A DNA stretch of 64,000 bases, taken from a virus. This document shows, one piece after another, positions 10,498 through 62,497 of this stretch. The stretch lies in the IMG/VR virus record IMGVR_UViG_3300042556_001828, positions 1 through 64,000 of that record; one strand, 5' to 3'. The stretch's first letter is position 1. Each line of letters starts with the position of its first letter. The position numbers were made by a program, and so were the translations under genes. The notes under the pieces were generated by a model that saw only the letters and a list, made by a program, of their open reading frames with translations, did no database searches and was not told where the DNA came from.

Positions 10498-10540
10498 CAC
10501 AACCACGCGTTTCAAAAAAAAATACACGACCGCAAAATTC

Positions 10541-14577: not shown

Positions 14578-15504
14578 TCACTTGAAGTCAACGCGAGCCA
14601 GACCGTTCGTGTGACCGAACGAGCCGCCTTGCGTCTGGTAGGCAAAGTACTCCAGCATGAACGCCTCACGACGGATGTACATCGTGGTGGGCTCAAGCTC
14701 GTAGTTCTTGCCGATGAACTTCGGCGACGCGAACATGAACAACGAGTCGTCAGGCACAAGATCGCGCTTGATCGTAACAATCCAGCGAGTGTTGAGGAAG
14801 TTAGTCTCCGCCCAACCGTTCTTGATGATGTCCTGCGAGAAGTCGCCGCCCATTTCGTCGCGGCCGAACTTCAGCAGTTCCTTGATGGTGATGTTGTTCA
14901 CCAAGCAAGTCTCCACTTCGAAGTGCGACGGCGTGCGGGGCATAACCTTCAGGGCGTCAACAAGCGTCTCACGGGTGATGCCGCCGCTGATCTCCTCGTA
15001 CTGCACAACGCCGCTAGCGACGTTAGCAACACCAGCAGTCGGCAGCACGGCGTTGAAGGCGGCAATAAACTTGCCGTCTTCCTCAGCGAGCATGTCCTTG
15101 ATCATGTTGTCGCTGAGCACCTGACGAATGTCGATGACATACGTACGGAGTTCGTCGACGTCCTTCACAGCGCGGGGCGACACGATCCGGTCAAACATGA
15201 CGCGGTAACGCGGGCCACGGATGTAGAAGTTGATCGGGAGTGTCGCAAACGGGAGCGACACAGCCGCCGGGGAATCGGGCTCCTTGTCCACAACCTTGAC
15301 GGGCTTGTCAGTGTCAACCTGACGGTCCAGCTCGTCGTTGGTGATGGTCAGCGGGGGCATAATCCGACGGTAGAAACCGTCTTCACGCATCTTGGTGCGC
15401 GTGAAGTCGTTAACTGCGTCGATGGCCTGCTTCTGCATGCCGGGGGTATCGAGCTGCTCAAACAGTGTTTCGTTGAGCAGTTGTACTTCTTGCTGAGTGG
15501 GCAT
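14578..15504 (-). CDS. Major capsid protein (HK97-like)
   Basis: 308 aa from the ATG at 15504; an in-frame ATG at 15519 would add five residues. I prefer 15504 because GGAGG lies 8 nt upstream of it. The sequence has HK97-fold traits: an N-terminal helical arm, PLTITNDELDRQVDTDKPV, a central strand/helix region and a C-terminal ...PTTMYIRREAFMLEYFAYQTQGGSFGHTNGLARVDFK typical of the P-domain ending. It lies with protease and scaffold genes in the expected order. The leader folds into a hairpin that shows the SD in its loop (15509-15524). Confidence 0.8.
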   Translation of the reverse strand: MPTQQEVQLLNETLFEQLDTPGMQKQAIDAVNDFTRTKMREDGFYRRIMPPLTITNDELDRQVDTDKPVKVVDKEPDSPAAVSLPFATLPINFYIRGPRYRVMFDRIVSPRAVKDVDELRTYVIDIRQVLSDNMIKDMLAEEDGKFIAAFNAVLPTAGVANVASGVVQYEEISGGITRETLVDALKVMPRTPSHFEVETCLVNNITIKELLKFGRDEMGGDFSQDIIKNGWAETNFLNTRWIVTIKRDLVPDDSLFMFASPKFIGKNYELEPTTMYIRREAFMLEYFAYQTQGGSFGHTNGLARVDFK

Positions 15505-15508
15505 TGTG

Positions 15509-15524
15509 GGAACCTCCATGTTCC
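15509..15524 (-). promoter_or_regulatory. SD-presenting leader hairpin, major capsid gene
   Basis: GGAAC-ATGGAG-GTTCC forms a 5-bp stem whose 6-nt loop contains the Shine-Dalgarno core GGAG, 4 nt before the ATG at 15504. The same loop sits on different stems at 16116-16131 and 26067-26082. The stem bases differ but still pair, evidence for an RNA structure controlling translation. Confidence 0.65.
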
Positions 15525-26148: not shown

Positions 26149-28023
26149 TCAGGGCTTCCACCCACTTGTCGTTCCGGTCACGCCAAAGTTTTCGCCTTGT
26201 GCCAGCGCCGGAACATAACTGCTACCGGCGGTATTGCTCGTTAAACCGCGGTGTACGCTGTTCAGCAGGCCTTTTTCTTGGTACGACCCGAGCATGCGGG
26301 TCATCCAGTCAGGATCGTTGGAGATGTTCGACATGCCGCGTACCATTTCGGGCTGAAACGGCGGCGGCTCTCTGTGCGCTTGAATATTTGTAATGCCGTG
26401 CTGGCCCAAGGTTTTAACAACGTTTTTTGTGATTGGCGTGCCGACGGAATAATGCAGCGCGGGCTGTTCCAGATAGTGCCCAGAAAGCGTACTCGGCGCG
26501 CCGGCTACGCTCCCGTCGCGCGGCGTCCAGTTTCGCTCCAACATCGAATACGGCACGATATCGTCAGGGGAGTAGTCGCCGTGCTCGTCCGTCATGCGCA
26601 CGTGGTTAATCAAGCCGCGCGAAAGCAACTCAATGTTTCTGCGGTGGGCTGTAATACCGCTATTTTGCATCACCTGCCGCATCGCTTGGACAAAATAGCG
26701 GCGGCCTTCACCCACGCCTTTATGGCGGACAATTTCAGCTGGGTTCGGCATACCCTCCGAAATTGTGTCACCAGCTTCGATCTCGTCACCCTTTTTAACC
26801 GTAACGCCGCGGTCCGTTGGGACATAATGGTCTTGACCGTTAATTTGCACATAAAAGCCGCCCTGTGGCGCAGGACGCACTTCTTGGACATGCCCATCTG
26901 CCTGAGCGTGTGTTGCCCCGCCGGGAAACTTCTTCGGCACCTGTACAAGCGCGTTGAGCGCTTTAAAACCAGAAATCCCGCCTGCGCCACCGACGCCGCC
27001 AGAGTGCTTGGAGCTAATCTGACTTTGTGTGACAGGCTCTGAAAGCGCCTGCGCGGCTGCAATACCCACATAGTCTCCGACAGGCGGCAGATGGCCTTTT
27101 TCGCGATAGCCGACGTCATTTGCATAGACACCGCCGTCTTCTGGGCCGCCGACAATTGGGCTGCGCACTAAGATATCTTTAACGCCCATCTCTTTGATGT
27201 CGCGCATGATTTTGGGCGTCAGCACAGTATTGCGCTTGTACGGCCCTACGGGTCGCGACAGCATTGCGCCCTCGTTGTCGGGGTCGTCTATGTCCGTGGG
27301 AAAACCGCGCTCGTGGGCGTTGGCTAGGCGCTCTTGGTCTTGCTCGTCTTGGTCCGTGACAAGCAGTCTGTGCGCCATCTGCGTAAGCTGCTTGCCGTAG
27401 AACCCGGCGTCAGCTGTGGCGGTCTTCAGGTCAATTACACCCTTGCGGGTGCCGAACGCGCCGGCAAAGTACTCCACGGGCGTTAAGCCTTGGGCGTATC
27501 CGCGCATAACAGGAATTGGAATAGGCTCGCCGCGGTGGTCGAGATACTGCATGTCGGCGCCAAGGATCGAGTTCAGCTGGAACTTGTTGCCCACGCCGGA
27601 TCCAGCAATCTGGTGCGCTAACGGATTATCGTGCCCGTGGGCCTCGTTATACACATCATCCACAAGCTGCCGCTGCGCTTCCGACGCCAGCTTGAGTATT
27701 TTCGCATTGCGCTGCTCGTCGTTGAGGCCCCTATCCGCCAGAATCTGCCGCAACTGCTGTTTTACTTTCAGCTGCGTGTGCTGCGCCGCCAAACTCGGCC
27801 GCACGTCTTTCAGGCCGAACGATAAGCCGTTTGTTGTGTACGCGGAATCAAGCGCCACGTCATGAAGCTTTTTCATGACTTCGCGGTATTTTTCCGGGTA
27901 TTTCTTGGCTAATTCTGTCGCCAGCGCGCCCGTGTTTTTCTTGTTCAAAACGCGCGTATAGTCCCGCATGTCTTCCGGCAGCGCGTCATTAACCAGCAAC
28001 TGACCTAGCGTTGTTTTCAACAT
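26149..28023 (-). CDS. RNA polymerase beta-prime C-terminal subunit
   Basis: 624 aa. Conserved beta-prime blocks occur in order. AGSGVGNKFQLNSILG and GEPIPIPVMRGYAQGLTPVEYF (140-186) match the SGARGNxxQ region. FGTRKGVIDLKTATADAGF (190-208) is the bridge helix and start of the trigger loop. VGIAAAQALSEPVTQSQISS (319-338) matches the VGIIAAQSIGEPGTQLT block. It completes the active site begun in the 1814-aa protein, where beta-prime is cut after the Asp triad. Cellular beta-prime is one chain, while phiKZ-type phages split it. The subunit acts in transcription of phage genes. Confidence 0.9.
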   Translation of the reverse strand: MLKTTLGQLLVNDALPEDMRDYTRVLNKKNTGALATELAKKYPEKYREVMKKLHDVALDSAYTTNGLSFGLKDVRPSLAAQHTQLKVKQQLRQILADRGLNDEQRNAKILKLASEAQRQLVDDVYNEAHGHDNPLAHQIAGSGVGNKFQLNSILGADMQYLDHRGEPIPIPVMRGYAQGLTPVEYFAGAFGTRKGVIDLKTATADAGFYGKQLTQMAHRLLVTDQDEQDQERLANAHERGFPTDIDDPDNEGAMLSRPVGPYKRNTVLTPKIMRDIKEMGVKDILVRSPIVGGPEDGGVYANDVGYREKGHLPPVGDYVGIAAAQALSEPVTQSQISSKHSGGVGGAGGISGFKALNALVQVPKKFPGGATHAQADGHVQEVRPAPQGGFYVQINGQDHYVPTDRGVTVKKGDEIEAGDTISEGMPNPAEIVRHKGVGEGRRYFVQAMRQVMQNSGITAHRRNIELLSRGLINHVRMTDEHGDYSPDDIVPYSMLERNWTPRDGSVAGAPSTLSGHYLEQPALHYSVGTPITKNVVKTLGQHGITNIQAHREPPPFQPEMVRGMSNISNDPDWMTRMLGSYQEKGLLNSVHRGLTSNTAGSSYVPALAQGENFGVTGTTSGWKP

Positions 28024-28049
28024 AGAGCGTATCCGGCGCTAAGCAGTGT

Positions 28050-28256
28050 TCAGTCAATAAACGTAACCACAGGTACTGTTTCAATCCCCGCGAGTTTCAA
28101 AATACCCGGGAAATCTTTTTGGCTGGCGTCTGAATACACAATTCCCTCAGACATATGCAGCGCGACAAAGATTGGGTTTCCATTGTCATCTTCGATCACA
28201 ACGGTGTGTGCCAGTTGCTCTGCCGGCTGCAAGTTATGGTGGGTTTTAACCCGCAT
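28050..28256 (-). CDS. Small hypothetical protein between polymerase genes
   Basis: 68 aa, beta-rich (HTVVIEDDNGNPIFVALHMSEGIVYSDASQKDFPGILKLAGIETVPVVTF). It overlaps the end of the Pro-rich gene by 11 nt and stands 27 nt upstream of the beta-prime C-terminal gene. Unknown family. Placement inside the polymerase operon makes a role as an accessory factor possible. Confidence 0.5.
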   Translation of the reverse strand: MRVKTHHNLQPAEQLAHTVVIEDDNGNPIFVALHMSEGIVYSDASQKDFPGILKLAGIETVPVVTFID

Positions 28257-28890
28257 ACTTATTCAAGCTCCGCTGCAGGATAGCAACAGCGCTGGCCTTT
28301 ACATGCAGATCGTGCGCCGACGCGCCCTTCATCGCGGCAGGATCGGCAGGCGGTGCGCTAGGGTCCATTGGGCCGCCCGGAGGAAGCGGGCCGCCCGGCG
28401 CTTGAGGCGCATTGGGCGCGCCGGGGGCTTGCGGCGGCGGGGCCATTGGGCCACCCGGCAACGCAGACTCAGCCGGCGGTGCGCCCGGCGAACCCGGCGG
28501 CAGAACCAACGACTCGGGCGGCACTTGCACGCCCAGCGCGTTCATAATCGCCGTAAGCTGCTGCTGCATGTTATACAGCCTGTAGTCGAGCATATTCATC
28601 ATCTGCTCAGGCTTGAGCTTCTGCGGCGCCGCTTGGCCGGGCGCAGCAGGCGCTGCCGGCGCGGCCGGAGCGGCTGGGGCGGCGGGAGGAGCCATGCCCA
28701 TGGCCGCGGGGTCCATCGGCGCACCGCCCTGCATTGCGGCCGGATCTACAGGAGGCGCCGCGCCCATCGCCGCGGGGTCCATTGGAGGCGCGCCGCCACC
28801 CATCGAGGGGTCGCCGCCGGGCGGAACAACGGCACTTTTTTCGAGGCGCATCTGCGCCAGAGCAAGCAGTTCAGGGTTAATCGTGTACAT
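28246..28890 (-). CDS. Pro/Ala/Gly-rich protein between polymerase genes
   Basis: 214 aa, of which about half is Pro/Ala/Gly (repeats of PPMDPAAMG type near the start, GAPNAPQAPGGPLPPGG later). A short helical core, LKPEQMMNMLDYRLYNMQQQLTAIMNALGV (about 96-125), could be a coiled coil. It is a low-complexity linker-type virion protein. Function unknown. A good SD (GGAGG) precedes ATG. Confidence 0.5.
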   Translation of the reverse strand: MYTINPELLALAQMRLEKSAVVPPGGDPSMGGGAPPMDPAAMGAAPPVDPAAMQGGAPMDPAAMGMAPPAAPAAPAAPAAPAAPGQAAPQKLKPEQMMNMLDYRLYNMQQQLTAIMNALGVQVPPESLVLPPGSPGAPPAESALPGGPMAPPPQAPGAPNAPQAPGGPLPPGGPMDPSAPPADPAAMKGASAHDLHVKASAVAILQRSLNKYAG

Positions 28891-28911
28891 AAAACCTCCG
28901 TGTTATCCGAG

Positions 28912-31900
28912 CTACGTATTATCTTCCACAATATGCACTTGGGTGTCTACGCCTATTTCACCACGCTTGTACGCCGCCATAGCGTCGCGCTTGGTGCGAT
29001 ATACGTGGGGTTTAGATTTGTGATTTGTTCGGCTAGACGCCACATACAACCCAGTTTGATAGTCTTTGTTCGGCACGTAATGCGCTTTAAACGAAGCCGC
29101 CGAGAACAGATTTTTGCTGGGCAGCATCTTGTGAATAGCTTCTTTGGCAGCGTCGTCAGTGCTGGGCACGTGATACTGCATGGCGTCTCCGTCAAAGTCG
29201 GCGCCAAAACCCTTGGTAATCACAGGGTTTACTTCCATGACCTTGTTCTTGGTCAGGCGCGGATAAAACGCCATCAGGCCGTAACGGTGCAACACGGGCG
29301 CGCGATTAATCACAATCGGCCGGCTGTTCATCTGGGTGTGCAGCTCTTCAAACGCAGCTTTGTTTTTGCCCTCAACAGCGTCTAGCGCCTGCATTCTGGG
29401 CATTCCTCGTCGCACCAACCCGCGCACCACGAACGGCTTGTAAATATCCCATGCCTTCTCTTCGGGCAGTGCCACCTGATCCATGTCCAGATCCGGGTTG
29501 GGCGTAATCACCGCCCGACCCACCAAGTCCACGGTGGAACTCAGCAGCTTGCGCTGAACCGTGCCGTACTTGGGCGAACTACCGAAAATCTTAGACAAGA
29601 AACCCTTAACGTTCCGCTCAACGTTTTTGGGCTGCTGCGGGTCGCCCAAACCGCTGACGGCTTTCACGGCGTCATACAGGCCCAGCCGCTCGTCGCCATA
29701 GCTATCAAAGGCGCCGGATGTTTCGCGCAACACGTGGTTGGCGTCGAGTAACTCTTTGTAAAGATAGTTCGCGTCGTCTACCAGCGGGAGTTTCTTAGAA
29801 CCCATCGTCGTTACGGGCCTGAACAACGGCGGCAAGACAGCCACCTTACTCATCATCCAGTCTTTCGGGTGGACGCCGGTAGCTTCTGCGCTCTTCAGGA
29901 AACCCAGCTTGCGGACAGCGGCGTCACGAATGGTCTTGCGACCTGATTTGATATCTTGGCGGGTCTGCTCAATCGCTTTGGGAAGATTAATCTTGGCCAG
30001 CGCTGCTTGAATTGCCTCTGGGCCGGTCTTGTCGAACAGTGTGGCTTGGCCGGCAAGGACGCCACGGAATTGCTTCTCGGTAATACCCAACACACGGCGA
30101 ATGGGGTCTTCCATGACGGGGTTAGGCATCGGCTCGTGTAATGTTATCTTTGACCACCGATTCCCGCCGTGGCCGCCCGTCATTGTTTCGTCAAACAGCC
30201 CGCCGGCTTTGGGCTTCATCAAGCCTTTCCAGTCGACCGTCTCGCTGTTCTTGATTTCACGATCACCGGCCAGCGAGTCCACATCCTTGTCCGTCATCGC
30301 CATAATGTGGGTCTTCGTGCCCTCGCGCACAGTGTTGATACCCGCGGCTTTAAGCTGATTGACGAACTTGTTGTACACGTGCGGCACCTTGGGCAGCGGT
30401 GGCGAATAGCCCGCCATGAACTGCGACCAGTATTCGGGGTTGGCTTGGCCGCGCACCATCTTGGCGTCGCGAATGACTTGGCCGGCGCCGTGAGATAAGA
30501 GCGCACCCAGATCCAACATGCCGATGCGCTTGGCGCCTTCGCTACCGCCCTTGGCCGGCGTGCCTTCAGCGGTATAGCCACCGGTCGAGCGGCCTTGGCC
30601 CTTGGACTCAGCGGTGTGGTGCAGCTTCATGAAGAACCGATTGCCGGTCAGCACACCCGGAATATTCCGGCCCGTCTCAGGGTCCGTGACGTGCTCAGTG
30701 TCTGACAAACCGTGCTTCTCAAGTTCTTTCTGCGCAAAATCAATCAGGTCTTTGCTGTTATCAAAGTCGGGGATCTTGTACGGCTGACCAGTTTTGGCCG
30801 CCACTTTGCCCAAGGCCGCCTCGACAACTTGAGCTGGATTCACGCGGCTAATCAAACCCAGCGGACTGACCAGCGCCTCGTAAGGATTCCCGTCTTTGTC
30901 GTGCGGCATCTGGTGGTCTGGGACGACTTCAGCAATCACGCCCTTGTCACCAAACCGGCCTGTGAGCTTGTCGCCCACTTCCATTTGAGACTTGTTCTTC
31001 ACAACAACGCTGACGCCCTTGTCCGTGTGCTCGACGTCAGTCACGATGCCGGGCGAATGGTGGTCCCACGTTACTGTCTCGTTGGCAAAGTTACCGCCGC
31101 GGCCACGATGGACTTTGCCATAGACAGCGTCGCGCTTCTTGGCCACGAGCACTAACGGATCGCCGTAGTTAACTTCCATGCCCTTCTTGATGGCGCCCTT
31201 GTCGTCGAAGTTATCCAGCAGCTTTTTGTCATACTCGCCCGGGAACAGACTCACGAACGCCTTTTTGCCGACGTGCGTGTTAGCGTCCCACTCGGCTTCG
31301 TGCTGATACATGTGCTCGCTGGTCAAGCGCTTGGCGGCAGACTGTGAGATCACAATAGCGTCTTCGTAGTTCTTGCCTCTAAACGGCAGATACGCCGTAC
31401 GCAAGTTCATGCCCAGCGCCGCGGTGCCCTGCTTGTCTGTAAAGTTAGAGTGCGCCAGCAGCTGCCCCGGCTTGATAAAGTCTCCGGCCTGCACAGCGGG
31501 CGTCTGCGTCCAGAACGTTTTCCGGTTGAACGGCATGTCGTTATACAGATCTGTCACTTGCTTATTGCCGTCTTTGTCGCGCCACACAATACTGTCGGGC
31601 GTCACGGACTCGACACGGCCGGCCGACTGCGCCCTGACAGCGCCCAGCTTTTCTCCCATGACATCTTCATAAGAACTGCTTGGATTATGCGCCTGCCCAG
31701 ACTGCACAAGCGGCGCCTCGGCATTCACGAGGGGCAGCGCCTGCGTAAACATGCGCGAACCCATGATCACACGATGGCCCTTGATCATGGTCTTCATCGG
31801 CACCATGTTCGACAGGGCCGAGAACGTGTTATCCATGTTGGGCAGGCTGTATTGGGCCTGATCGCGCGGCACGTACTTAATCTTGCCGCCGACTAGTGCC

Positions 31901-34356
31901 GACACCATCGGCAGGTCATGCTTGTCCTCGCCGGGAAACACCAGCGGAATGTCAGCCAGCTCCTGCGGGGTTTTATACGTGGTCTGGCCTGTCTTGGTGT
32001 CGACCACGGGCGTATAAATCTTGCCGTCTTGGCCCTTCATTGCGCCGCCGGCAAAGCGCATGTCAACACCGACCTTGCCGCTGTTACCGCACCAAAAACC
32101 GCAATTGCCGTGCCGCCGAACGTACAACAAACCGCCCGGTACCGTGGCGCAGTACACCATGCCGGAATACTGCTGTGTGAAATAGTGACAACGCCCGTCT
32201 CGTGCCGCCCGCGGTAAAACCTGATGGCTATTTTGTTTATGCACATGCACAATCCAGCAGCCACCTGTCGATGAGTGCGGCCGACTGTCTTTTTCAAACA
32301 CAGTGCGCGACGAATACCCGAGCCCAAACGCTAACCGCTCAAAATCGCGAGCAAGTTGCTGACTTGATGTGCAAAAACATGTGCGCTCGCCCTGTTTGTT
32401 TTTGCGGCCCTCGCTTTTCATCAGCGCGTCAAACAACCGAAAACGGGCATTACTGGGCGCGCGAAAAAAAACGTCGGGAATCCAGCGCTTGGGGCTGCCG
32501 TTAAATTGCTTGAAATACGCAGCAACTTGTTTTGTGGCAATAGTAAACGCTTTGCCGTGATAACCCCACTTAAACGGCAATTTGTTTAAAAGCGCCCGAA
32601 TTTGATCGCAATTTTCTGGGTTGTGTTTCTGGCACTGCGTTATTTTTACGTGATATTGCGCCGTATCCGGCCGATATACGCAATTGCCTTCACCTAAATA
32701 CCAACCTAGTAATTCAGCCCAATCGGCAATATCGACTGCGTCAACTACGGCCCGATTATTGCTGGTGTACTCTGGTTGCGGCACAGCAAATGTAGTTACT
32801 GCGTCGCCTTCGTACGCATCAAAGCCGCCGGATAGAACGCCACGAAACTTTAAATGCATATGCGGCGCAAGCTCTATTCGATACGCGGCGCCGGCGTACA
32901 ACGGTCGCGTATACATGCGATGATTTGGCGTAACCAGATAATTTATTTTACCTGTGTTGCCGCCGTACATTATTCCGGCGTAATGCGCGGCGTGTAGTTT
33001 TTCTGCGACGTGGAATGACAACACACCGGCGGCGTTTAAGCAAGCAAACTCGTCAGCGTCTGTTACATCTGGCCATTTTTTCCACCCGCTACGCGTCATC
33101 ACTTCAGTTTCAGCGTCATAACACTCCGGCGTGCGCAAGTAGTCAATAAAGCCCAGATGGCTTGGCTGGACGCTACGCGACTCAGCCGGTACCGAATCCA
33201 AGCTACCAATGCCGCCTTCGCCCAGTCGTGTCACGCGCGTTTGGTGATCAAAAATCTCAGCCGGGTTAATTTCTTCCAGACTTGAACCCAGCCCAGACCC
33301 GATCAGCGCGGCACTGATAGCTTTGTTAAATACGCCGCTGGGAATATGGTCTAGTGACTTCTTGGCCGTGGCTTTCCAGAGGAGCTGCCGCAGGTTCTTC
33401 TTGTCTTTCGTGAAGCGCTCGGCCAGCAGATCTTCAGGACCATGTACTGATTGAAAAGCCATGCTATCACGGTCGTCTGATTCGGCTTCTTTGCGATTGA
33501 CCGCGATGAGCTTCTTGGTGATCGCCAGAATCGTGTCGGGCGTCATGTGCTTGTGCGACGTGCCAAGTGTGCGTCGGGTAACGTCTTCGTCTAGTTCGGT
33601 CTTGGCGAACTCCTCGTTAATAGCTTTGGCTTTTTCTTCAGCTGTGGCGCCCGCGATTGGTTTATTCACAAGCCGTTGATACAGCTTATCCAGCGTGCCC
33701 GCGTCGCCCTTCTCCATGTTGACAGCCGTGATCTCGTTGCCCCACGCCTGCCGCATGGCTTGCTCGGGCACGCCCATGTGGCGCAACAGGGGCATAAGCG
33801 GAATCTGCGCTTGGCCAATCTGGATCTTGAACACACCTGTTTGCGGGTCGAGATAATACCTATGTGAACGACCTTTACCGGGAAGCGTATTGACGTGCGC
33901 TTCCAGCTCGCCGTTCTCTTTCTCGCGGGTAAACACGCCCGGGCGTAGGCGCATCTGGTGGGCCAACGTGTACTCAACGCCCTTGTTCACAAACGTGCCG
34001 GAGTCTGTAAGATACGGCACATTGGCAATCGTGGCCCGGCGCTGCGCAACAGGCTGATTGGTTTTGTTATCAATGAGCGTCCACGTGCCCTGCATCTTGC
34101 GCGCTAGCGAGCCGCGCGTCAGCACAGCTTTCTTCTGGTCAGCCTTCGCATACATCTCAGGGCCGGCGTAGCCCACATCTTGCAGGTGCAACGTGTACAG
34201 ATCATTCTTGATCGGCTCGATACCCTGCGCGCTGGACAATGCCCGCTCAAAGATATTTTTACGCATCCCAGCCACGTCGCCGAATGCACGCGGCTGTAAG
34301 GGTTGCGGCGGCTGCGTAAGGGCAGGCAGGGGTGGTGCGGAAAAAGGCTCGGCCAT
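28912..34356 (-). CDS. RNA polymerase beta/beta-prime fusion (beta with intein + beta-prime N-terminal half)
   Basis: 1814 aa before splicing, 1467 after removing a 347-aa intein at residues 412-758. Beta blocks: FVNKGVEYTLAHQMRLRPGV (122-141), RSVQPSHLGFIDYLRTPE|SGKVGVDMRF around the intein, FRGKNYEDAIVISQ (GYNFEDSI-like), and GDKLTGRFGDKGVI (GDKxAxRHGxKGV). Beta-prime blocks: GGLFDETMTGG, VDLVGRAVITPNPDLDMDQVALP, INRAPVLHRYGLMAFYP, and the catalytic GFGADFDGDAMQYH with Asp 1720, 1722, 1724. The chain ends 90 residues past this triad; the 26149-28023 gene supplies the rest. Alpha, omega and sigma were not found. SD is weak (CCGGGGCAC). Confidence 0.93.
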   Translation of the reverse strand: MAEPFSAPPLPALTQPPQPLQPRAFGDVAGMRKNIFERALSSAQGIEPIKNDLYTLHLQDVGYAGPEMYAKADQKKAVLTRGSLARKMQGTWTLIDNKTNQPVAQRRATIANVPYLTDSGTFVNKGVEYTLAHQMRLRPGVFTREKENGELEAHVNTLPGKGRSHRYYLDPQTGVFKIQIGQAQIPLMPLLRHMGVPEQAMRQAWGNEITAVNMEKGDAGTLDKLYQRLVNKPIAGATAEEKAKAINEEFAKTELDEDVTRRTLGTSHKHMTPDTILAITKKLIAVNRKEAESDDRDSMAFQSVHGPEDLLAERFTKDKKNLRQLLWKATAKKSLDHIPSGVFNKAISAALIGSGLGSSLEEINPAEIFDHQTRVTRLGEGGIGSLDSVPAESRSVQPSHLGFIDYLRTPECYDAETEVMTRSGWKKWPDVTDADEFACLNAAGVLSFHVAEKLHAAHYAGIMYGGNTGKINYLVTPNHRMYTRPLYAGAAYRIELAPHMHLKFRGVLSGGFDAYEGDAVTTFAVPQPEYTSNNRAVVDAVDIADWAELLGWYLGEGNCVYRPDTAQYHVKITQCQKHNPENCDQIRALLNKLPFKWGYHGKAFTIATKQVAAYFKQFNGSPKRWIPDVFFRAPSNARFRLFDALMKSEGRKNKQGERTCFCTSSQQLARDFERLAFGLGYSSRTVFEKDSRPHSSTGGCWIVHVHKQNSHQVLPRAARDGRCHYFTQQYSGMVYCATVPGGLLYVRRHGNCGFWCGNSGKVGVDMRFAGGAMKGQDGKIYTPVVDTKTGQTTYKTPQELADIPLVFPGEDKHDLPMVSALVGGKIKYVPRDQAQYSLPNMDNTFSALSNMVPMKTMIKGHRVIMGSRMFTQALPLVNAEAPLVQSGQAHNPSSSYEDVMGEKLGAVRAQSAGRVESVTPDSIVWRDKDGNKQVTDLYNDMPFNRKTFWTQTPAVQAGDFIKPGQLLAHSNFTDKQGTAALGMNLRTAYLPFRGKNYEDAIVISQSAAKRLTSEHMYQHEAEWDANTHVGKKAFVSLFPGEYDKKLLDNFDDKGAIKKGMEVNYGDPLVLVAKKRDAVYGKVHRGRGGNFANETVTWDHHSPGIVTDVEHTDKGVSVVVKNKSQMEVGDKLTGRFGDKGVIAEVVPDHQMPHDKDGNPYEALVSPLGLISRVNPAQVVEAALGKVAAKTGQPYKIPDFDNSKDLIDFAQKELEKHGLSDTEHVTDPETGRNIPGVLTGNRFFMKLHHTAESKGQGRSTGGYTAEGTPAKGGSEGAKRIGMLDLGALLSHGAGQVIRDAKMVRGQANPEYWSQFMAGYSPPLPKVPHVYNKFVNQLKAAGINTVREGTKTHIMAMTDKDVDSLAGDREIKNSETVDWKGLMKPKAGGLFDETMTGGHGGNRWSKITLHEPMPNPVMEDPIRRVLGITEKQFRGVLAGQATLFDKTGPEAIQAALAKINLPKAIEQTRQDIKSGRKTIRDAAVRKLGFLKSAEATGVHPKDWMMSKVAVLPPLFRPVTTMGSKKLPLVDDANYLYKELLDANHVLRETSGAFDSYGDERLGLYDAVKAVSGLGDPQQPKNVERNVKGFLSKIFGSSPKYGTVQRKLLSSTVDLVGRAVITPNPDLDMDQVALPEEKAWDIYKPFVVRGLVRRGMPRMQALDAVEGKNKAAFEELHTQMNSRPIVINRAPVLHRYGLMAFYPRLTKNKVMEVNPVITKGFGADFDGDAMQYHVPSTDDAAKEAIHKMLPSKNLFSAASFKAHYVPNKDYQTGLYVASSRTNHKSKPHVYRTKRDAMAAYKRGEIGVDTQVHIVEDNT
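32083..33123 (-). mobile_element. LAGLIDADG intein inside the RNA polymerase beta segment
   Basis: 347 codons inserted between TPE and SGKVGVDMRF. Block A begins CYDAETEVMTRSGW (Cys1), block B reads LVTPNHRMYTR (TxxH), the two LAGLIDADG helices are LLGWYLGEG (138-146) and LFDALMKSEG (230-239), and the C-terminus is GGLLYVRR...CGFWCGN followed by Ser+1. The penultimate residue is Gly rather than the usual His. Removing it restores a continuous beta sequence RTPESGKVGVD. The homing endonuclease appears intact, so it could be mobile. Confidence 0.92.
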
Positions 34357-44045: not shown

Positions 44046-44062
44046 GGTTTTCTCCGTGTGTG

Positions 44063-44134
44063 CTGCCTGACTAGGATTTGAACCTAGAACCTAGCGGTTA
44101 ACAGCCGCGCGCTCTACCGTTGAGCTATCAGGCA
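44063..44134 (-). tRNA. tRNA-Asn (GTT)
   Basis: 72 nt on the minus strand. Acceptor TGCCTGA/TCAGGCA pairs fully; D stem GCTC/GAGC; anticodon stem GCGG/CCGC around loop CTGTTAA (anticodon GTT); T stem CTAGG/CCTAG with loop TTCAAAT. The 3' end is G followed by CAC, so the CCA is added after transcription. Only tRNA found in the window. Confidence 0.93.
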
Positions 44135-54742: not shown

Positions 54743-56722
54743 TTATAACGCAGGCGCAGAATATTCGCCGCAGGTAAAACTGGCGCTAACTTTCTCGGCT
54801 AATTGGGCGGGATTTTCTTTATGCCGGCTGCCGATTTCACGCAATAAGTTCCTGAACTCTTCGTTGAGTTTCTCTTTCTCGGCGGTAAGTCTTTCTAGGA
54901 CTTCGTCGCCCGTACGCTCGCGCTTGTAGCCCATGAGCTTGCCCAACAGACTGGGTTCTTCAGAGCTAGAGATATACCGCTGCACCGCTACGTTTTTGAG
55001 TTCCTCTGGTAAGCCAGCGTGGGAGTCAAAGCGCAGGCCTCTACCACGCGCCTGCTGCGTCCGGGCTTCGTTCCAGTGCGGGTCCATGAGCTGAATTAAG
55101 CTCGTGCCCTTGGTGGAAATACCCTCGGCGCCGGCAGGGCCAATGAGTAACGCCCTGAGCTTGCCGGCGTTGTAGGCATCGACGGCTGCTTGGCGCACCT
55201 TGGGAGAAACACCGCCGTGGAAGAACGCATGGGGCACGCCAGCCTGTGTTAAGCCAGCAGCGTAGGGGCCCAAGCCAGAATCCACAAAGTTGGAATAGAT
55301 AATAGCTTTCTTGCGCTCATCTGAGTCCAGCGTGCTCTTGAGGTTCTTGAACGCCTCCTGCATCTTGGCTGACTGCTGGAACGCTTTGAGGGGATCTCTA
55401 TCGGCCCGAAATGGCTGCGTGGATAAACCCACTTGGCGTAGGCCCGTCATAAAGCTATTTAATTTAGCTAGTTCCTGCCGAGATAGCGGGAACTCTTTAT
55501 CTAGCTTCCACAAAAACCCCGGCGGAACTTTCGTGCGCACAGCTTTCTGGATGCGCTGCTGCTCTGCAGAAAGTGGTACCCGTATAGTCTGCTCGTTGAT
55601 ATTCACGCCCTCGGGAGTCTTGCTGGGCTGATAATCTACTTTGCCCTCCAGCAAACTCCTGAGCTTGGGGCCATTTCTAATAATGGGCTTCATGCCCGGT
55701 GTCGCGCCATGCAGCCAGCCCCAGAGTCCCGGCCAGACTTTCTTGTAGCCCACGTACTCTTTCTCAAACTGGTCAGGCGTGATCTCCTGCTTGTTGAGCA
55801 TCGAGACAATGCTGGCCAGATCTTTGGGCTCATTGGTAATGGGCGTGCCAGTTAATAACATTAACCGGTCCGCGTTTTGGGCGGCCTGAAAAGCAGCGCG
55901 CGTACTGGCCGCGTCTGGATTGCGCAATCTGGCTGCTTCGTCCATGACCAGTGTCTCGGGCTGGTCTTTGAACTGCTTGCCCATGCCCAGCCCCGTGTAG
56001 CTCATGATCTCGGGCTGGCTGTCGGTGAATTTCTTCACTTCTTTCTGGAAGTTCCCCCTAAGACTAGCCGGGGCCACAATGCCGTAGCTCCCGCCGTGCT
56101 GCCTCTGGGCCGCTTCAGCCGCTGCAAGGGCTGAGAGACTCTTCCCAGAGCCCAGCCCGTGATAGACGAGCATACGGGGGTTCTCGCCAGTCACGCGGTC
56201 TGAGATGCGCTGCTGGTGGTCTTGCAGCTGGATGCCGGGAAGTAAGTCAGCTTGTTTACCCAAGCCTTGCACGTATTTCTGCATGGCTTTGCGCTGATAC
56301 GCGTCGAGCATCTCAGCCGTGGCGCCCGATTGCTCTGCCGGTACGAGCTTGCTGGGGTCGATTCCCCAGTTGCGCAGCGCCCAGCCACGTCGTGGCGTGG
56401 GATTATTAACAAAGGGGCCGCCGTGCCGCGCTTTGAAGCTTGCCCAGCGCTTGATCTGGCGTTCGTCTTCGTCTGGGATACGCCGGCCGCCTGAGTAGCG
56501 CTTGTACCACTGCGCCCAGCCCTTGGGATCGTGCTCTGACACCCATTCGGGCTTCCATGCGCCCAAGCTAGCGAGTCTGGGGCCTTGATTACGGTATAGC
56601 GCGTCGTACACGCCCAAGTTCTCAAGCTGCTCTGGTGTGTAGTCAGGGGTAAAGTCTACAGCGTGCTTTGCCCACGCCTTGCCCGCGGCGCTCGCAATGA
56701 TATCTGTATCGAGGTCGGGCAT
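54743..56722 (-). CDS. Snf2-type helicase
   Basis: 659 aa. Helicase motifs: I MLVYHGLGSGKS (184-195), II LVMDEAARLRN (about 257-267), III LLTGTPITNEPKDL, IV-V VDAYNAGKLRALLIGPAGAEGISTKGTSLIQLMD, VI ARTQQARGRGLRFDS. The N-terminal 180 residues have a WAQWYKRYSGGRRIPDEDERQIKRW motif known from other phage and eukaryotic-virus-type proteins. SF2 ATPases of this class remodel DNA-protein complexes or help transcription and repair. Long stem-loop in its leader. Confidence 0.85.
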   Translation of the reverse strand: MPDLDTDIIASAAGKAWAKHAVDFTPDYTPEQLENLGVYDALYRNQGPRLASLGAWKPEWVSEHDPKGWAQWYKRYSGGRRIPDEDERQIKRWASFKARHGGPFVNNPTPRRGWALRNWGIDPSKLVPAEQSGATAEMLDAYQRKAMQKYVQGLGKQADLLPGIQLQDHQQRISDRVTGENPRMLVYHGLGSGKSLSALAAAEAAQRQHGGSYGIVAPASLRGNFQKEVKKFTDSQPEIMSYTGLGMGKQFKDQPETLVMDEAARLRNPDAASTRAAFQAAQNADRLMLLTGTPITNEPKDLASIVSMLNKQEITPDQFEKEYVGYKKVWPGLWGWLHGATPGMKPIIRNGPKLRSLLEGKVDYQPSKTPEGVNINEQTIRVPLSAEQQRIQKAVRTKVPPGFLWKLDKEFPLSRQELAKLNSFMTGLRQVGLSTQPFRADRDPLKAFQQSAKMQEAFKNLKSTLDSDERKKAIIYSNFVDSGLGPYAAGLTQAGVPHAFFHGGVSPKVRQAAVDAYNAGKLRALLIGPAGAEGISTKGTSLIQLMDPHWNEARTQQARGRGLRFDSHAGLPEELKNVAVQRYISSSEEPSLLGKLMGYKRERTGDEVLERLTAEKEKLNEEFRNLLREIGSRHKENPAQLAEKVSASFTCGEYSAPAL

Positions 56723-59133: not shown

Positions 59134-61065
59134 CTAATTCTTTCGGGCTACAGCTAACTCTGCCGCTTTACTTACAAATTCTTCTGCGCTAGCGAACTTA
59201 TGGTCGTCAGAAAGCAATGGATAAGCATGGGCCAGAGTCTTGGGCTTAAGTAACCCATACTCTTTCATGAGCTTGGCGGTGTTTAAGATATTTTTACGCT
59301 TGTTAGCTGCGTGCATATAAGCGGCAGCTACGCCAGCACCCGTCCCAGCTAGGCCCACACCAGCGCCGTCCATGCCGCCCAGATACCCCAAGCCGGCCGT
59401 GCCCAGTAAACCAAGGGCACCAGCACCAGCAGCGTACATCTTGGGATCCGGCGCCATATCGCTGAGGTTATATTTGTCTTGGCCCTGTGAATTTCTCACG
59501 ATGTGGCGCAGGGATGACTGAAAGCCATCGCGATTCAGGCCCCGAGCGCGCAATGTGTTGTCATCGGGCCGGACAAGGGCTTTGAGCTGGCCATATTGCT
59601 GCACAGCGTGTTGAATCTGGTCAGGGCCTGCAAAACTGGAATAGTTATCTAAACCCAAGGGGCGGGCAGCTTTGTATAGCTGGCTGGCGGCGCCGTATTT
59701 TTGCTGCATCGCTTTAATCGCGGCTGGGCTTAGTTGCGCGCCAATTTGAAACGCGTCGGCTTTTTCGCCTTTTTCGTTTACAAAATCAGCTACTTGCCTC
59801 GCATGCAAACCGTCATCAAATTCTTCTTCTCGTTCATTTTGTCGATAAATTTTTGTGCCGTCAGGCAGCGTGGCGTAATGCATGCGATCTTTTGGATATT
59901 GTCGGCCCTTACGCGAATTTGGTCCGCCGCCAAACATATAAGCTGCGCCAAGCCCGCCAGCAGTAAGTAAACCGCCACCCGCAATTGCCGCGCCGAGCGT
60001 TGGATCAAATGCTGTTTTGGCCAGCATCAGCGCCGAGCACTTGCAGTTCCACTTGCGCAGGGACTTGTTAATACGCGAGTCTGGGTCTTTGGCTGTCGCG
60101 GCGCCAGTATTTACGCTCTTCATGCCGCACATACGCGAGCAGAAAGAGTTCTGTCGCTTAGCCCGGTCGCCGCTGGGATTAGACTCAGTGACAGGCGCTT
60201 TGAGATTCCCGCCGTGTTCGCGCTCGTAGCTCTTGCGGCCCTTCTCGTTCAGGCCGCCTTCGTCGTTCTTACCAGCACTGCGTTGCCATGCGGGAGAACT
60301 GGCAGCCGTTTTGGAACTATCTGGTGAGTTCTTTGTGCCAAACGCCGCATTGCCGTTGATGTTGCCAGACGCAGACAAAGCACCAAACGAGTTGATCGGG
60401 TTGGCAGAAGGCGAGTTCATGCCTGCGCCCTGTGCTTGTGCCGGCTGGGCAGCTTGGGGCTGTTGCGGCTGCGCTGGTTGGGCCGGCTGCTGCATACCCA
60501 TCGGCATAGGGGTGGTATTAACGGGCATGGCGTATCGCTTGATTCCGACGTTTTGCGGCATTTTTGCGGCCATTCGGGCCTGCTGCTCAGCTTTTTCGTT
60601 CTCAATCGCCTGCATAATCGGCTGCGAAAGAACGACGGCAAGCTTCTTCAAAAGTGAATTAACATCACTGTTAACAGTTTCACCCGCCAATTCCTCGCTA
60701 CTCTGGTTGACTTCGTCCTCATTCCGCGTCTGGATCGGCGAAGCCTTATCTTCCCCCGCGTTCTCTGCCGTAACGTGTTCATCGCCGGCAGCTACGGGCT
60801 TGTCTGAGTGCGGAATATCTACCTTGAGCAGCCCAGAGTTCGCTTTTTTAACACATTCGTTGTAAATCGTTAGCCCAATAGTGTTTACGGCAAAAGCCTT
60901 GTTAATGTTATCCATAGCTGCGGCCTTTTCCTTGTCATCGGGTTTCTTTTTATGCGCATACAGGGGCAAGTCTTTCTGCCCCGGGTATTCTTTTGCCCAA
61001 CGTTTCGCGATATCTGGATGCTGCGACCAGAGGAAACGCCGCTGCTTCTCGGACTTAAATGGCAT
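59134..61065 (-). CDS. Large virion-type protein with MPFKSEKQRRF start
   Basis: 643 aa from ATG 61065. It starts MPFKSEKQRRFLWSQHPDIAKRWAKEYP, a helical N-terminal motif often seen in phage proteins. A Pro/Gln-rich linker (GMQQPAQPAQPQQPQAAQPAQAQ) lies around 200-220. A Cys-rich SFCSRMCGMKSVNTGAA, DPDSRINKSLRKWNCKC segment follows (about 305-345). Gly-rich hydrophobic helices come next (LGAAIAGGGLLTAGGLGAAYMFGG; GAGALGLLGTAGLGYLGGMDGAGVGLAGTGAGVAAAY). An ejection-type role is inferred. Confidence 0.55.
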   Translation of the reverse strand: MPFKSEKQRRFLWSQHPDIAKRWAKEYPGQKDLPLYAHKKKPDDKEKAAAMDNINKAFAVNTIGLTIYNECVKKANSGLLKVDIPHSDKPVAAGDEHVTAENAGEDKASPIQTRNEDEVNQSSEELAGETVNSDVNSLLKKLAVVLSQPIMQAIENEKAEQQARMAAKMPQNVGIKRYAMPVNTTPMPMGMQQPAQPAQPQQPQAAQPAQAQGAGMNSPSANPINSFGALSASGNINGNAAFGTKNSPDSSKTAASSPAWQRSAGKNDEGGLNEKGRKSYEREHGGNLKAPVTESNPSGDRAKRQNSFCSRMCGMKSVNTGAATAKDPDSRINKSLRKWNCKCSALMLAKTAFDPTLGAAIAGGGLLTAGGLGAAYMFGGGPNSRKGRQYPKDRMHYATLPDGTKIYRQNEREEEFDDGLHARQVADFVNEKGEKADAFQIGAQLSPAAIKAMQQKYGAASQLYKAARPLGLDNYSSFAGPDQIQHAVQQYGQLKALVRPDDNTLRARGLNRDGFQSSLRHIVRNSQGQDKYNLSDMAPDPKMYAAGAGALGLLGTAGLGYLGGMDGAGVGLAGTGAGVAAAYMHAANKRKNILNTAKLMKEYGLLKPKTLAHAYPLLSDDHKFASAEEFVSKAAELAVARKN

Positions 61066-61140
61066 AGCTCTGATATTAGCTCCCAAGCTGGATAGAAGTA
61101 TTTTGGCACAAGGGGTGGGAAATGCAAAGCGCTGATAGCT

Positions 61141-61176
61141 AAAAAAAAGCGCAGAGGCCCTTGTGGGCGTGCGCTG
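61141..61176 (-). terminator. Rho-independent terminator
   Basis: On the minus strand AGCGCACGCCC-ACAA-GGGCctcTGCGCT is followed by eight Ts, just after the stop of the gene at 61185-61622. It shares its hairpin with a second terminator at 61992-62026, with paired base changes. Confidence 0.9.
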
Positions 61177-61622: not shown

Positions 61623-61725
61623 GGCATAGATCTCCGCACCTGTGGGTTAGCTCAGCGGTTACGCAACAACTGAAAGCTATAGGTGGTTCACTATATATGC
61701 CCGGATTTCGACTTTTATTTAGATA

Positions 61726-62301: not shown

Positions 62302-62497
62302 ATCAAGGCTTTTTTTATACCCGCCTGAGCTTGTCCGACTGTTCCAGTGGTCGGGCACCTTATCCCCGTAGTTAACCGTACGGGTCGGTGTGTCAGCACA
62401 GGCAACACTTTTGGAAAAGCGCTGGCTGTGCTGACAGCTATAGTTCTACACCTAATATGCCGGCTTTTTGCCCGGTATTTAGGTGTGTTAGGCCTGC

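Follow-up and report, generated by a model that had tools for sequence, protein, structure and literature searches.

Sequence comparison identifies two neighbouring genes in a 64,000-nucleotide stretch of viral DNA (positions 1 to 64,000 of IMG/VR record IMGVR_UViG_3300042556_001828; hereafter the window) as encoding an RNA polymerase (RNAP) core of bacterial type in a large bacterial virus. One encodes a chain of 1814 aa in which the whole of beta is followed by the N-terminal half of beta-prime; the other encodes a protein of 624 aa with the C-terminal part of beta-prime (Table 1). The same arrangement is found in isolated phages, namely Salmonella phage Arash (gp206 of 1525 aa and gp216 of 606 aa) and Vibrio phage D69. 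The enzyme is probably packaged in the virion, dependent on a phage sigma factor, devoid of alpha, and responsible for starting transcription of the injected genome. A candidate capsid gene in the window provides the phage context.

Composition of the two polymerase chains

Both open reading frames (ORFs) lie where a preliminary description of the window, made without database searches, had placed them, and its reading of a phage multisubunit RNAP with beta and half of beta-prime in one chain agrees with the profile and structure database searches, which matched RNAP domains in each protein. The 1814-aa chain matches Pfam families RNA_pol_Rpb2_6 (E 2.6e-49) and Rpb1_2 (E 5e-23) over curated cut-offs and Rpb1_1 (E 7.7e-5), Rpb2_3 (E 0.0019) and Rpb2_2 (E 0.046) under them; phmmer searches of the PDB aligned it both with beta (best 7l7b_C, E 6.2e-68) and with beta-prime (best 6wvj_D of B. 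subtilis, residues 142-540, E 7.6e-47). The 624-aa protein matches Rpb1_5 over its cut-off (E 2.6e-23) and beta-prime chain 5uh5_D over 663-1183 (E 3.1e-37), in keeping with its description as the separate beta-prime C-terminal part; its final 130 residues found no PDB match by phmmer. The junction between beta and beta-prime lies at MTDKDV, residue 1354. In the relative G009, alignment to E. coli places a beta-prime-like stretch 12 residues after the beta C-terminal motif (SLGIN / ASGIN), so that the junction is tight, and MTDKDV..ELQNSET aligns with LASPDMI..EVKKPET of E. coli beta-prime. The first chain stops just past the double-psi beta-barrel (DPBB), near E. coli beta-prime residue 550, and the 624-aa protein starts at the equivalent of residue 568 (MLKTTLGQ / LKDTTVGR). 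The chain has no counterpart of the zinc ribbon of beta-prime (E. coli C70, C72, C85, C88), where a short Gly-rich turn is found instead. As aligned, the two chains jointly span beta-prime from near its start into the C-terminal blocks, minus the zinc ribbon. Beta is unsplit in one ORF, a plan correctly described as unlike that of phiKZ.

The main catalytic residues are retained and RNA synthesis is predicted. In E. coli numbering, G009, Arash and D69 retain beta R678, E813, D814, K1065, K1073 and R1106, and these three together with the window retain beta-prime R425, P427, D460/462/464, R780, Q929 and H936. The aspartates given earlier as 1720, 1722 and 1724 are those of the motif GADFDGD, which begins at residue 1718. 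Beta and beta-prime domains, the DxDGD triad and two catalytic lysines, the marks of a two-barrel (DPBB) RNAP, are thus all present. The position of N458, a residue of NTP selection, is Gly in the window and Ala in Arash and D69. Loss of this asparagine was considered as a family hallmark and rejected, 24 of 104 alignment rows (duplicates kept) having NADFDGD. Alignment also shows the beta-prime clamp helices retained. At the rifampicin-pocket positions Q513, F514, S531 and L533, G009, Arash and D69 have other residues, and resistance to rifampicin is predicted. An AlphaFold2 model of window residues 759-1814, built with 21 relatives (pLDDT 72, pTM 0.46), gave 1045 Foldseek matches in the PDB at E <= 0.001, the best being Thermus RNAP (E 9.8e-41, probability 1.00, TM normalised by query length 0.39, rmsd 13.8). 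With so low a TM and so high an rmsd the match holds at the domain level only.

The intein recognised earlier in the fused chain is a 347-aa block precisely absent from the inteinless G009, which reads RTPESGKVG without interruption at the site. It starts with CYDAETEV and ends with WCGN followed by S, in the context TPE[C...WCGN]SGK, and has a faint Pfam match to LAGLIDADG_3 (E 0.17, under cut-off). This site is occupied by an insert in loci L006 and L040 as well, and L007 and L008 share the TPECYD start. Inserts with intein-like ends were also seen elsewhere in the beta core (L151, 7977-13628; L143, 7923-13430), inside the trigger loop (L009, 15317-18376) and, in L144 (15876-18725), at two places, the bridge-helix region and the position following the trigger-loop His. 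Vibrio phages D148 and D181 share the fused arrangement, but an insert splits their fused gene: in D181 it measures about 950 bases and contains an ORF for a homing endonuclease (L004, 5444-6392), and the layout of D148 points to the same; the insert is perhaps a self-splicing intron.

Distribution, ancestry and known systems

With the window protein as lone query 43 loci were found, and with a five-chain family alignment (A2) 303 stretches were confirmed, the top 80 being retained. The 126 loci analysed, including the window, Arash, D69 and D181, comprise 76 distinct ones by the final 300 aa of the fused part. A closed fusion with a separate beta-prime C-terminal ORF is present in 61 of the 76, and in two more the beta-prime C-terminal part is off the locus. 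Five have a fusion of the C-terminal part of beta to the N-terminal part of beta-prime, and a beta-prime C-terminal part, with the beta N-terminal part elsewhere: past the contig end in L108 and L161, and in another ORF in L148, L164 and L165, where the break inside beta may be a frame change, an intron or a true split. Four are fused but truncated by the contig end, and four are too short for a call. Complete separate beta and beta-prime genes, or a single chain holding all of beta-prime, were found in none of the 76; as the set was gathered with fused queries and the best 80 kept, it is no gauge of how rare other plans are. A place for the beta-prime C-terminal part occurs once per record in 14 of 14 records.

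The preliminary description knew of no phage with this exact arrangement. It is distinct from the phiKZ plan, as then stated, but occurs in isolates and in dozens of IMG/VR contigs. As to whether it had already been reported, the sequences and the Arash proteome are public, and the Arash paper labels gp206 'beta' and gp216 'beta-prime', the passages concerned leaving the fusion unmentioned (PMC10585845). A search at the level of titles and abstracts, with preprints and most subscription papers outside its scope, found no publication describing the fusion of beta to the beta-prime N-terminal half, its family or its promoters. This is an RNAP of distinct plan, already public in isolates, whose sigma factor and promoter-like system had not been joined to it in the literature searched.

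An assembly artefact or a misannotated cellular rpoBC can hardly be entertained. Several phage-collection records named as phages of Staphylococcus, Enterococcus or Listeria, OR844998, OR846602 and OR847295 among them, do carry plain rpoBC and look like host contamination; against this, the arrangement recurs in dozens of contigs and in isolates, of which Arash is deposited complete, so that isolate genomes already refute an artefact, and the family forms a clade apart from 28 bacteria. Among bacterial genomes four stretches fitted a pattern of close relatives and none was confirmed, so that they give no clue to the host. The tree comprised 15 family members, phage YerA41 and these 28 bacteria (from 69 complete loci plus E. 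coli; 1961 columns, LG+F+G4). The family members form a single clade (UFBoot 100), separate from that of the bacteria (95) and from YerA41; the tree is unrooted and without archaea, and long branches could produce this grouping.

The closest described system is Arash (OQ632216), which has the same fusion, the same beta-prime split, a homologous helicase and capsid, some homologous tail genes, and in gp10 a homologue of the sigma factor of the window's relatives. The window itself has the fused beta-beta-prime N chain, the separate beta-prime C-terminal part and shared virion genes, and a gp10-type sigma via its relatives only. The two differ in that the fused chains are 32% identical, Arash has no intein, its Asp motif is AADYDGD, it keeps the second zinc-site cysteines, and it has two sigma genes and a different motif, where the window's relatives show one sigma. 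Beta-prime is likewise split into N- and C-terminal parts, and a sigma encoded, in YerA41, where RNAP subunits and sigma are marked as particle proteins (PMC7354516). YerA41 differs in having beta as a separate protein, in falling outside the family in the tree and in keeping all four zinc-ribbon cysteines; a CxC..CxxC pattern is seen in the RHph_Y65 row.

The virion and non-virion RNAPs of phiKZ and AR9 share with the window a beta-prime split after the DPBB, which is also the cyanobacterial split site, but have beta split as well and two RNAP sets (PMC7598289), against a whole beta and the single beta-prime C-terminal place noted above. No sigma is found in phages of the phiKZ type; the window's relatives encode one. 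Sigma is likewise absent from the RNAP-bearing jumbo phages of group 1, and a helicase of the SNF2 type is often situated close to the beta-prime C-terminal gene (PMC7824862). The mReC Caudovirales have beta and beta-prime that can be aligned with the bacterial ones and branch apart from cells; the criteria for that group demanded NADxDGD, and the major capsid proteins found there match PF07068 (PMC7481178). The window has GADFDGD in place of this motif, and its capsid candidate showed no PF07068 and no other Pfam match at E 0.05; other members of the family may overlap with the mReC clade. The RNAPs of crAss-like phages and P23-45 have the two barrels in one chain (PMC7481178, PMC10770324) and are highly diverged from cellular subunits (PMC7481178), and P23-45 uses one enzyme in the particle (PMC10770324). 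The window chain ends after the DPBB and so differs from bacterial fusions. In these, the rpoB-rpoC fusions of Helicobacter and Wolbachia, beta and all of beta-prime form one chain. The crAss-like and P23-45 enzymes are not known to have a separate beta-prime C-terminal chain or a sigma.

Sigma factor, promoter-like motifs and virion packaging

Profiles for alpha (PF01000) and omega (PF01192) matched none of 14 records at E 0.1, with controls positive in 13 and 14 of them. The core resembles the bacterial core in its predicted working and is not classed as alpha2-beta-beta'-omega, since alpha and omega were not found. A sigma ORF of 267-284 aa occurs in all 11 relatives of 194-205 kb, for which the first Pfam clues were weak (region 4 in 11 of 11, region 2 in 3 of 11). 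Its place in G009 is 183119-183973, some 3 kb past the gene severed by the window's left end (G009 186931-191613). In an alignment of the sigma of ten relatives with Arash gp10 (A1, 11 rows), Pfam recognised Sigma70_r3 in 11 rows and Sigma70_r4 in 10. As a profile, A1 matched 62 PDB sequences at E 0.1, and among the 60 listed 58 are sigma factors, SigA being covered over regions 2 to 4 (E 1.3e-10); the other two are 8vd6 and a designed protein. With the same profile a sigma was also recovered from 19 of 20 records at greater distance, the sole miss being an 85-kb record. In D69 both Arash sigmas have homologues (44% identity for gp10, 42% for gp196). A PF04545 match in D69 was dropped as a sigma, the protein being annotated as an HNH endonuclease. 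The predicted sigma fold is poor (pLDDT 64, pTM 0.34; best Foldseek match SigA, E 1.1e-6, TM 0.33), and the identity of the protein therefore rests on sequence.

From the co-occurrence of the genes and the co-detection of their products in Arash particles we infer that this phage sigma directs the fused core. It is common for phage sigma factors to redirect the RNAP of the host, and the sigma-like protein might instead serve the host enzyme while the phage core uses another, unseen specificity factor, as AR9 does. This is rather improbable: the flap tip is altered in the window's clade and group 1 jumbo phages do with RNAP alone (PMC7824862), but sigma and fused RNAP go together in the 11 relatives and in 19 of the 20 distant records, gp10 is in Arash particles, and the clamp helices are retained.

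How the enzyme finds promoters had been left open; a candidate answer is the sigma of the relatives together with a two-part motif that is also in the window. In noncoding runs of four records of the window's clade, GGCATAT occurs 21 times on the gene strand and once on the other, and GCTAAAT 18 times and twice; they are halves of one element. The exact form CTAAAT-N17-CATAT has 31 sites, all on the gene strand: 7 in G009, 10 in G004, 11 in G010 (180 kb) and 3 in the window record (at 61.7, 62.5 and 70.4 kb). In the four records no exact copy was found at spacings of 15, 16, 18 or 19 or on the opposite strand, and none in three model shuffles per record; the window has two sites against none in 100 shuffles. 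The motif was matched once in a bacterial locus (L212). A spacing of 17 bases is typical of sigma-70-type promoters.

Arash has an element of its own. GGTATAA has 40 copies on its minus strand against one on the plus. The upstream gaps examined contain 17 of the 40, among them 14 at a distance of 29-68 bases ahead of the next called start; five copies fall within opposite-strand gaps. The long form is TGGTATAAGTAANGTGTA. D69 shows no strand bias for GGTATAA (14 : 22), but TGTTATAA (13 minus : 2 plus) and TATAAGTA (15 : 4) are biased there. A second motif, CTAAAATA, favours the plus (structural) strand in Arash (4 : 1) and D69 (8 : 3), and one Arash copy lies 35 bases before gp216. The host consensus is approached by the -10 halves but not by the -35 halves. 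That CTAAAT-N17-CATAT is a host promoter, uninformative on the phage enzyme, accordingly deserves some weight as a minority possibility. Its spacing is ordinary for sigma-70, and CATATT shares 4/6 positions with TATAAT, as the -10-like TATAAG of Arash shares 5/6; but CTAAAT shares 2/6 with TTGACA, and the Arash element is long and strand-bound (40 : 1) beyond the needs of a host -10 box. We regard CTAAAT-N17-CATAT as a candidate phage promoter, perhaps read by the fused core with the sigma.

Other short elements were seen in the same regions. At window positions 61143 and 61994 a T-run and TTTAGCTATCAGC follow a hairpin-like stretch, a terminator-like element, and TTTAGCTAT has 11 copies in the noncoding runs of the four records, some directly before a candidate promoter. 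TGTATACT stands at window positions 10499 and 13725, ahead of two genes with Arash homologues called structural; 12 of its 13 copies in the four records are on the gene strand, and it is possibly the -10 part of a late promoter.

The case for packaging comes from mass spectrometry of purified Arash particles. The fused chain gp206 is the top protein (3516 spectra, 128 unique peptides), with the beta-prime C-terminal chain gp216 (1210 spectra, 40 unique peptides), the DNA helicase gp217 (1148 spectra, 38 unique peptides) and sigma gp10 (467 spectra, 24 unique peptides) also detected; the capsid protein gp226 has 1333 spectra, and the second sigma, gp196, does not appear in the particle protein table (PMC10585845). 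By analogy, RNAP, sigma and helicase would also be packaged in the window's phage. The competing account, in which a non-virion RNAP serves middle and late genes, host RNAP reads the early ones, and the Arash enzyme is carry-over, we judge unlikely. Carry-over is named by the Arash authors and their list of 116 proteins is rich in enzymes of DNA metabolism (PMC10585845), and no exact motif copy precedes the RNAP genes in the window. Against it, gp206 is detected above the capsid, gp10 is listed and gp196 is not, each record has one beta-prime C-terminal place, and the Arash RNAP, helicase and gp10 genes sit among genes called structural.

Several observations weigh against a packaged, sigma-directed enzyme. 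Sigma profiles (PF04542, PF04545) found nothing in the window's own 73,372-base record, a 73-kb fragment, just as no sigma had been noted in the window itself; the absence follows from the contig ending before the place of the G009 sigma gene. Pfam Sigma70_r2 is recognised in just 1 of the 11 A1 rows, and the flap-tip region, which in E. coli holds sigma region 4, is shorter in the window's clade. Beta-prime R339, R346, N458, T786, K789, R933 and F935, conserved in bacteria, are altered, the last two because the trigger loop reads ISSKH as against MRTFH. The best 50 of the 1045 Foldseek matches look like beta chains only (TM 0.39), so that the beta-prime part of the model is not seen among them. 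The motif was derived from the same genomes in which it was counted, a circularity answered by the spacing, strand and shuffle controls; once one mismatch is allowed, each record also shows 1 to 5 sites that lie on the opposite strand or have another spacing, and such copies turn up in shuffles as well. Enrichment of 8-mers in the window alone yielded nothing, three further genomes being needed, and the pairing of motif and enzyme is putative. The particle data come from Arash alone, 32% identical in the fused chain and about 24% in the beta-prime C-terminal part; the 116 proteins called there include reductase, ligase and primase (the primase with 932 spectra and just 2 unique peptides), and its authors propose early transcription or carry-over (PMC10585845).

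Under the packaged, sigma-dependent reading, the two chains would assemble without alpha, the link from beta to beta-prime standing in for part of the assembly platform, and the core would bind the phage sigma-70-family protein via the retained clamp helices. Core, sigma and helicase, detected together in Arash particles, would be packed in the virion and enter the host along with the DNA, and transcription would begin at phage promoters, in the window's clade CTAAAT-N17-CATAT. Because the injected enzyme would itself start transcription at these promoters, early genes would be independent of host RNAP. The wider proposition, that a widespread lineage of phages of about 200 kb injects a complete and self-sufficient three-chain sigma-dependent holoenzyme (beta-beta-prime N, beta-prime C and sigma), without alpha or omega and with its own -35/-10 code, seems to us evenly balanced; as the core branches outside the sampled bacteria, it may be an early capture that persisted as a separate transcription system.

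In this family the sequence stays close to that of bacteria (about 30% identity) and comes with a protein of the sigma-70 family and a strict motif of two parts, while no alpha, omega or beta-prime zinc ribbon is shown. RNAPs of the phiKZ type, by contrast, are in many pieces, sigma-less and hard to set beside bacterial enzymes. Members of the family include isolates that can be cultured. If the proposal is right, they would offer a three-chain enzyme for testing the need for alpha and the zinc ribbon, whether the platform role of alpha is taken over by the link from beta to beta-prime, and how infection begins from an injected polymerase.

Feature coordinates and other genes of the window

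Table 1. Features of the RNAP locus, other window genes and candidate promoters (window positions).
Feature	Position	Strand	Basis
Fused chain, 1814 aa: beta (~1-1353, with intein) and beta-prime N-terminal half (~1354-1814)	28912..34356	-	Pfam, PHROGs, PDB phmmer, alignment to E. coli
Beta-prime C-terminal part, 624 aa: bridge helix, trigger loop (..SEPVTQSQISSKH), C-terminal blocks	26149..28023	-	Pfam Rpb1_5, PDB phmmer, alignments
Predicted active-site Mg motif GADFDGD (E. coli NADFDGD; N458 to G)	29185..29205	-	alignments
Trigger loop region AAQALSEPVTQSQISSKH	27004..27057	-	alignments
Intein, 347 aa, residues 412-758, at beta ETPEG motif (TPE/SGK)	32083..33123	-	gap in G009
Pro/Ala-rich small ORF, 214 aa, between both RNAP genes	28246..28890	-	homologue in G009, 61% identity
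Major capsid protein candidate, 30% identity to Arash MCP gp226, E 2.3e-36	14578..15519	-	gp226 annotated major capsid protein
SNF2/Helicase_C helicase, homologue of Arash gp217 (33% identity over 477 aa, E 8.5e-73)	54743..56722	-	
Candidate phage promoter CTAAAT-N17-CATAT	61695..61722	-	motif search
Candidate phage promoter CTAAAT-N17-CATAT	62455..62482	-	motif search
Candidate promoter of Arash, for comparison: TGGTATAAG			

At an E of 0.01, 13 of the 20 window proteins scanned against PHROGs had no match. A 650-aa protein at 59134-61086 carries DUF6321 (E 4.9e-21) and matches eight PHROG families of unknown function, and a single tRNA-Asn (gtt) gene lies at 44062-44134. The capsid candidate is 99% identical to its copy in G009, with neighbouring genes at about 63-86%, which suggests that the gene was exchanged recently or that the G009 record is chimeric at one end; the first 50 bases of G009 recur close to its end.

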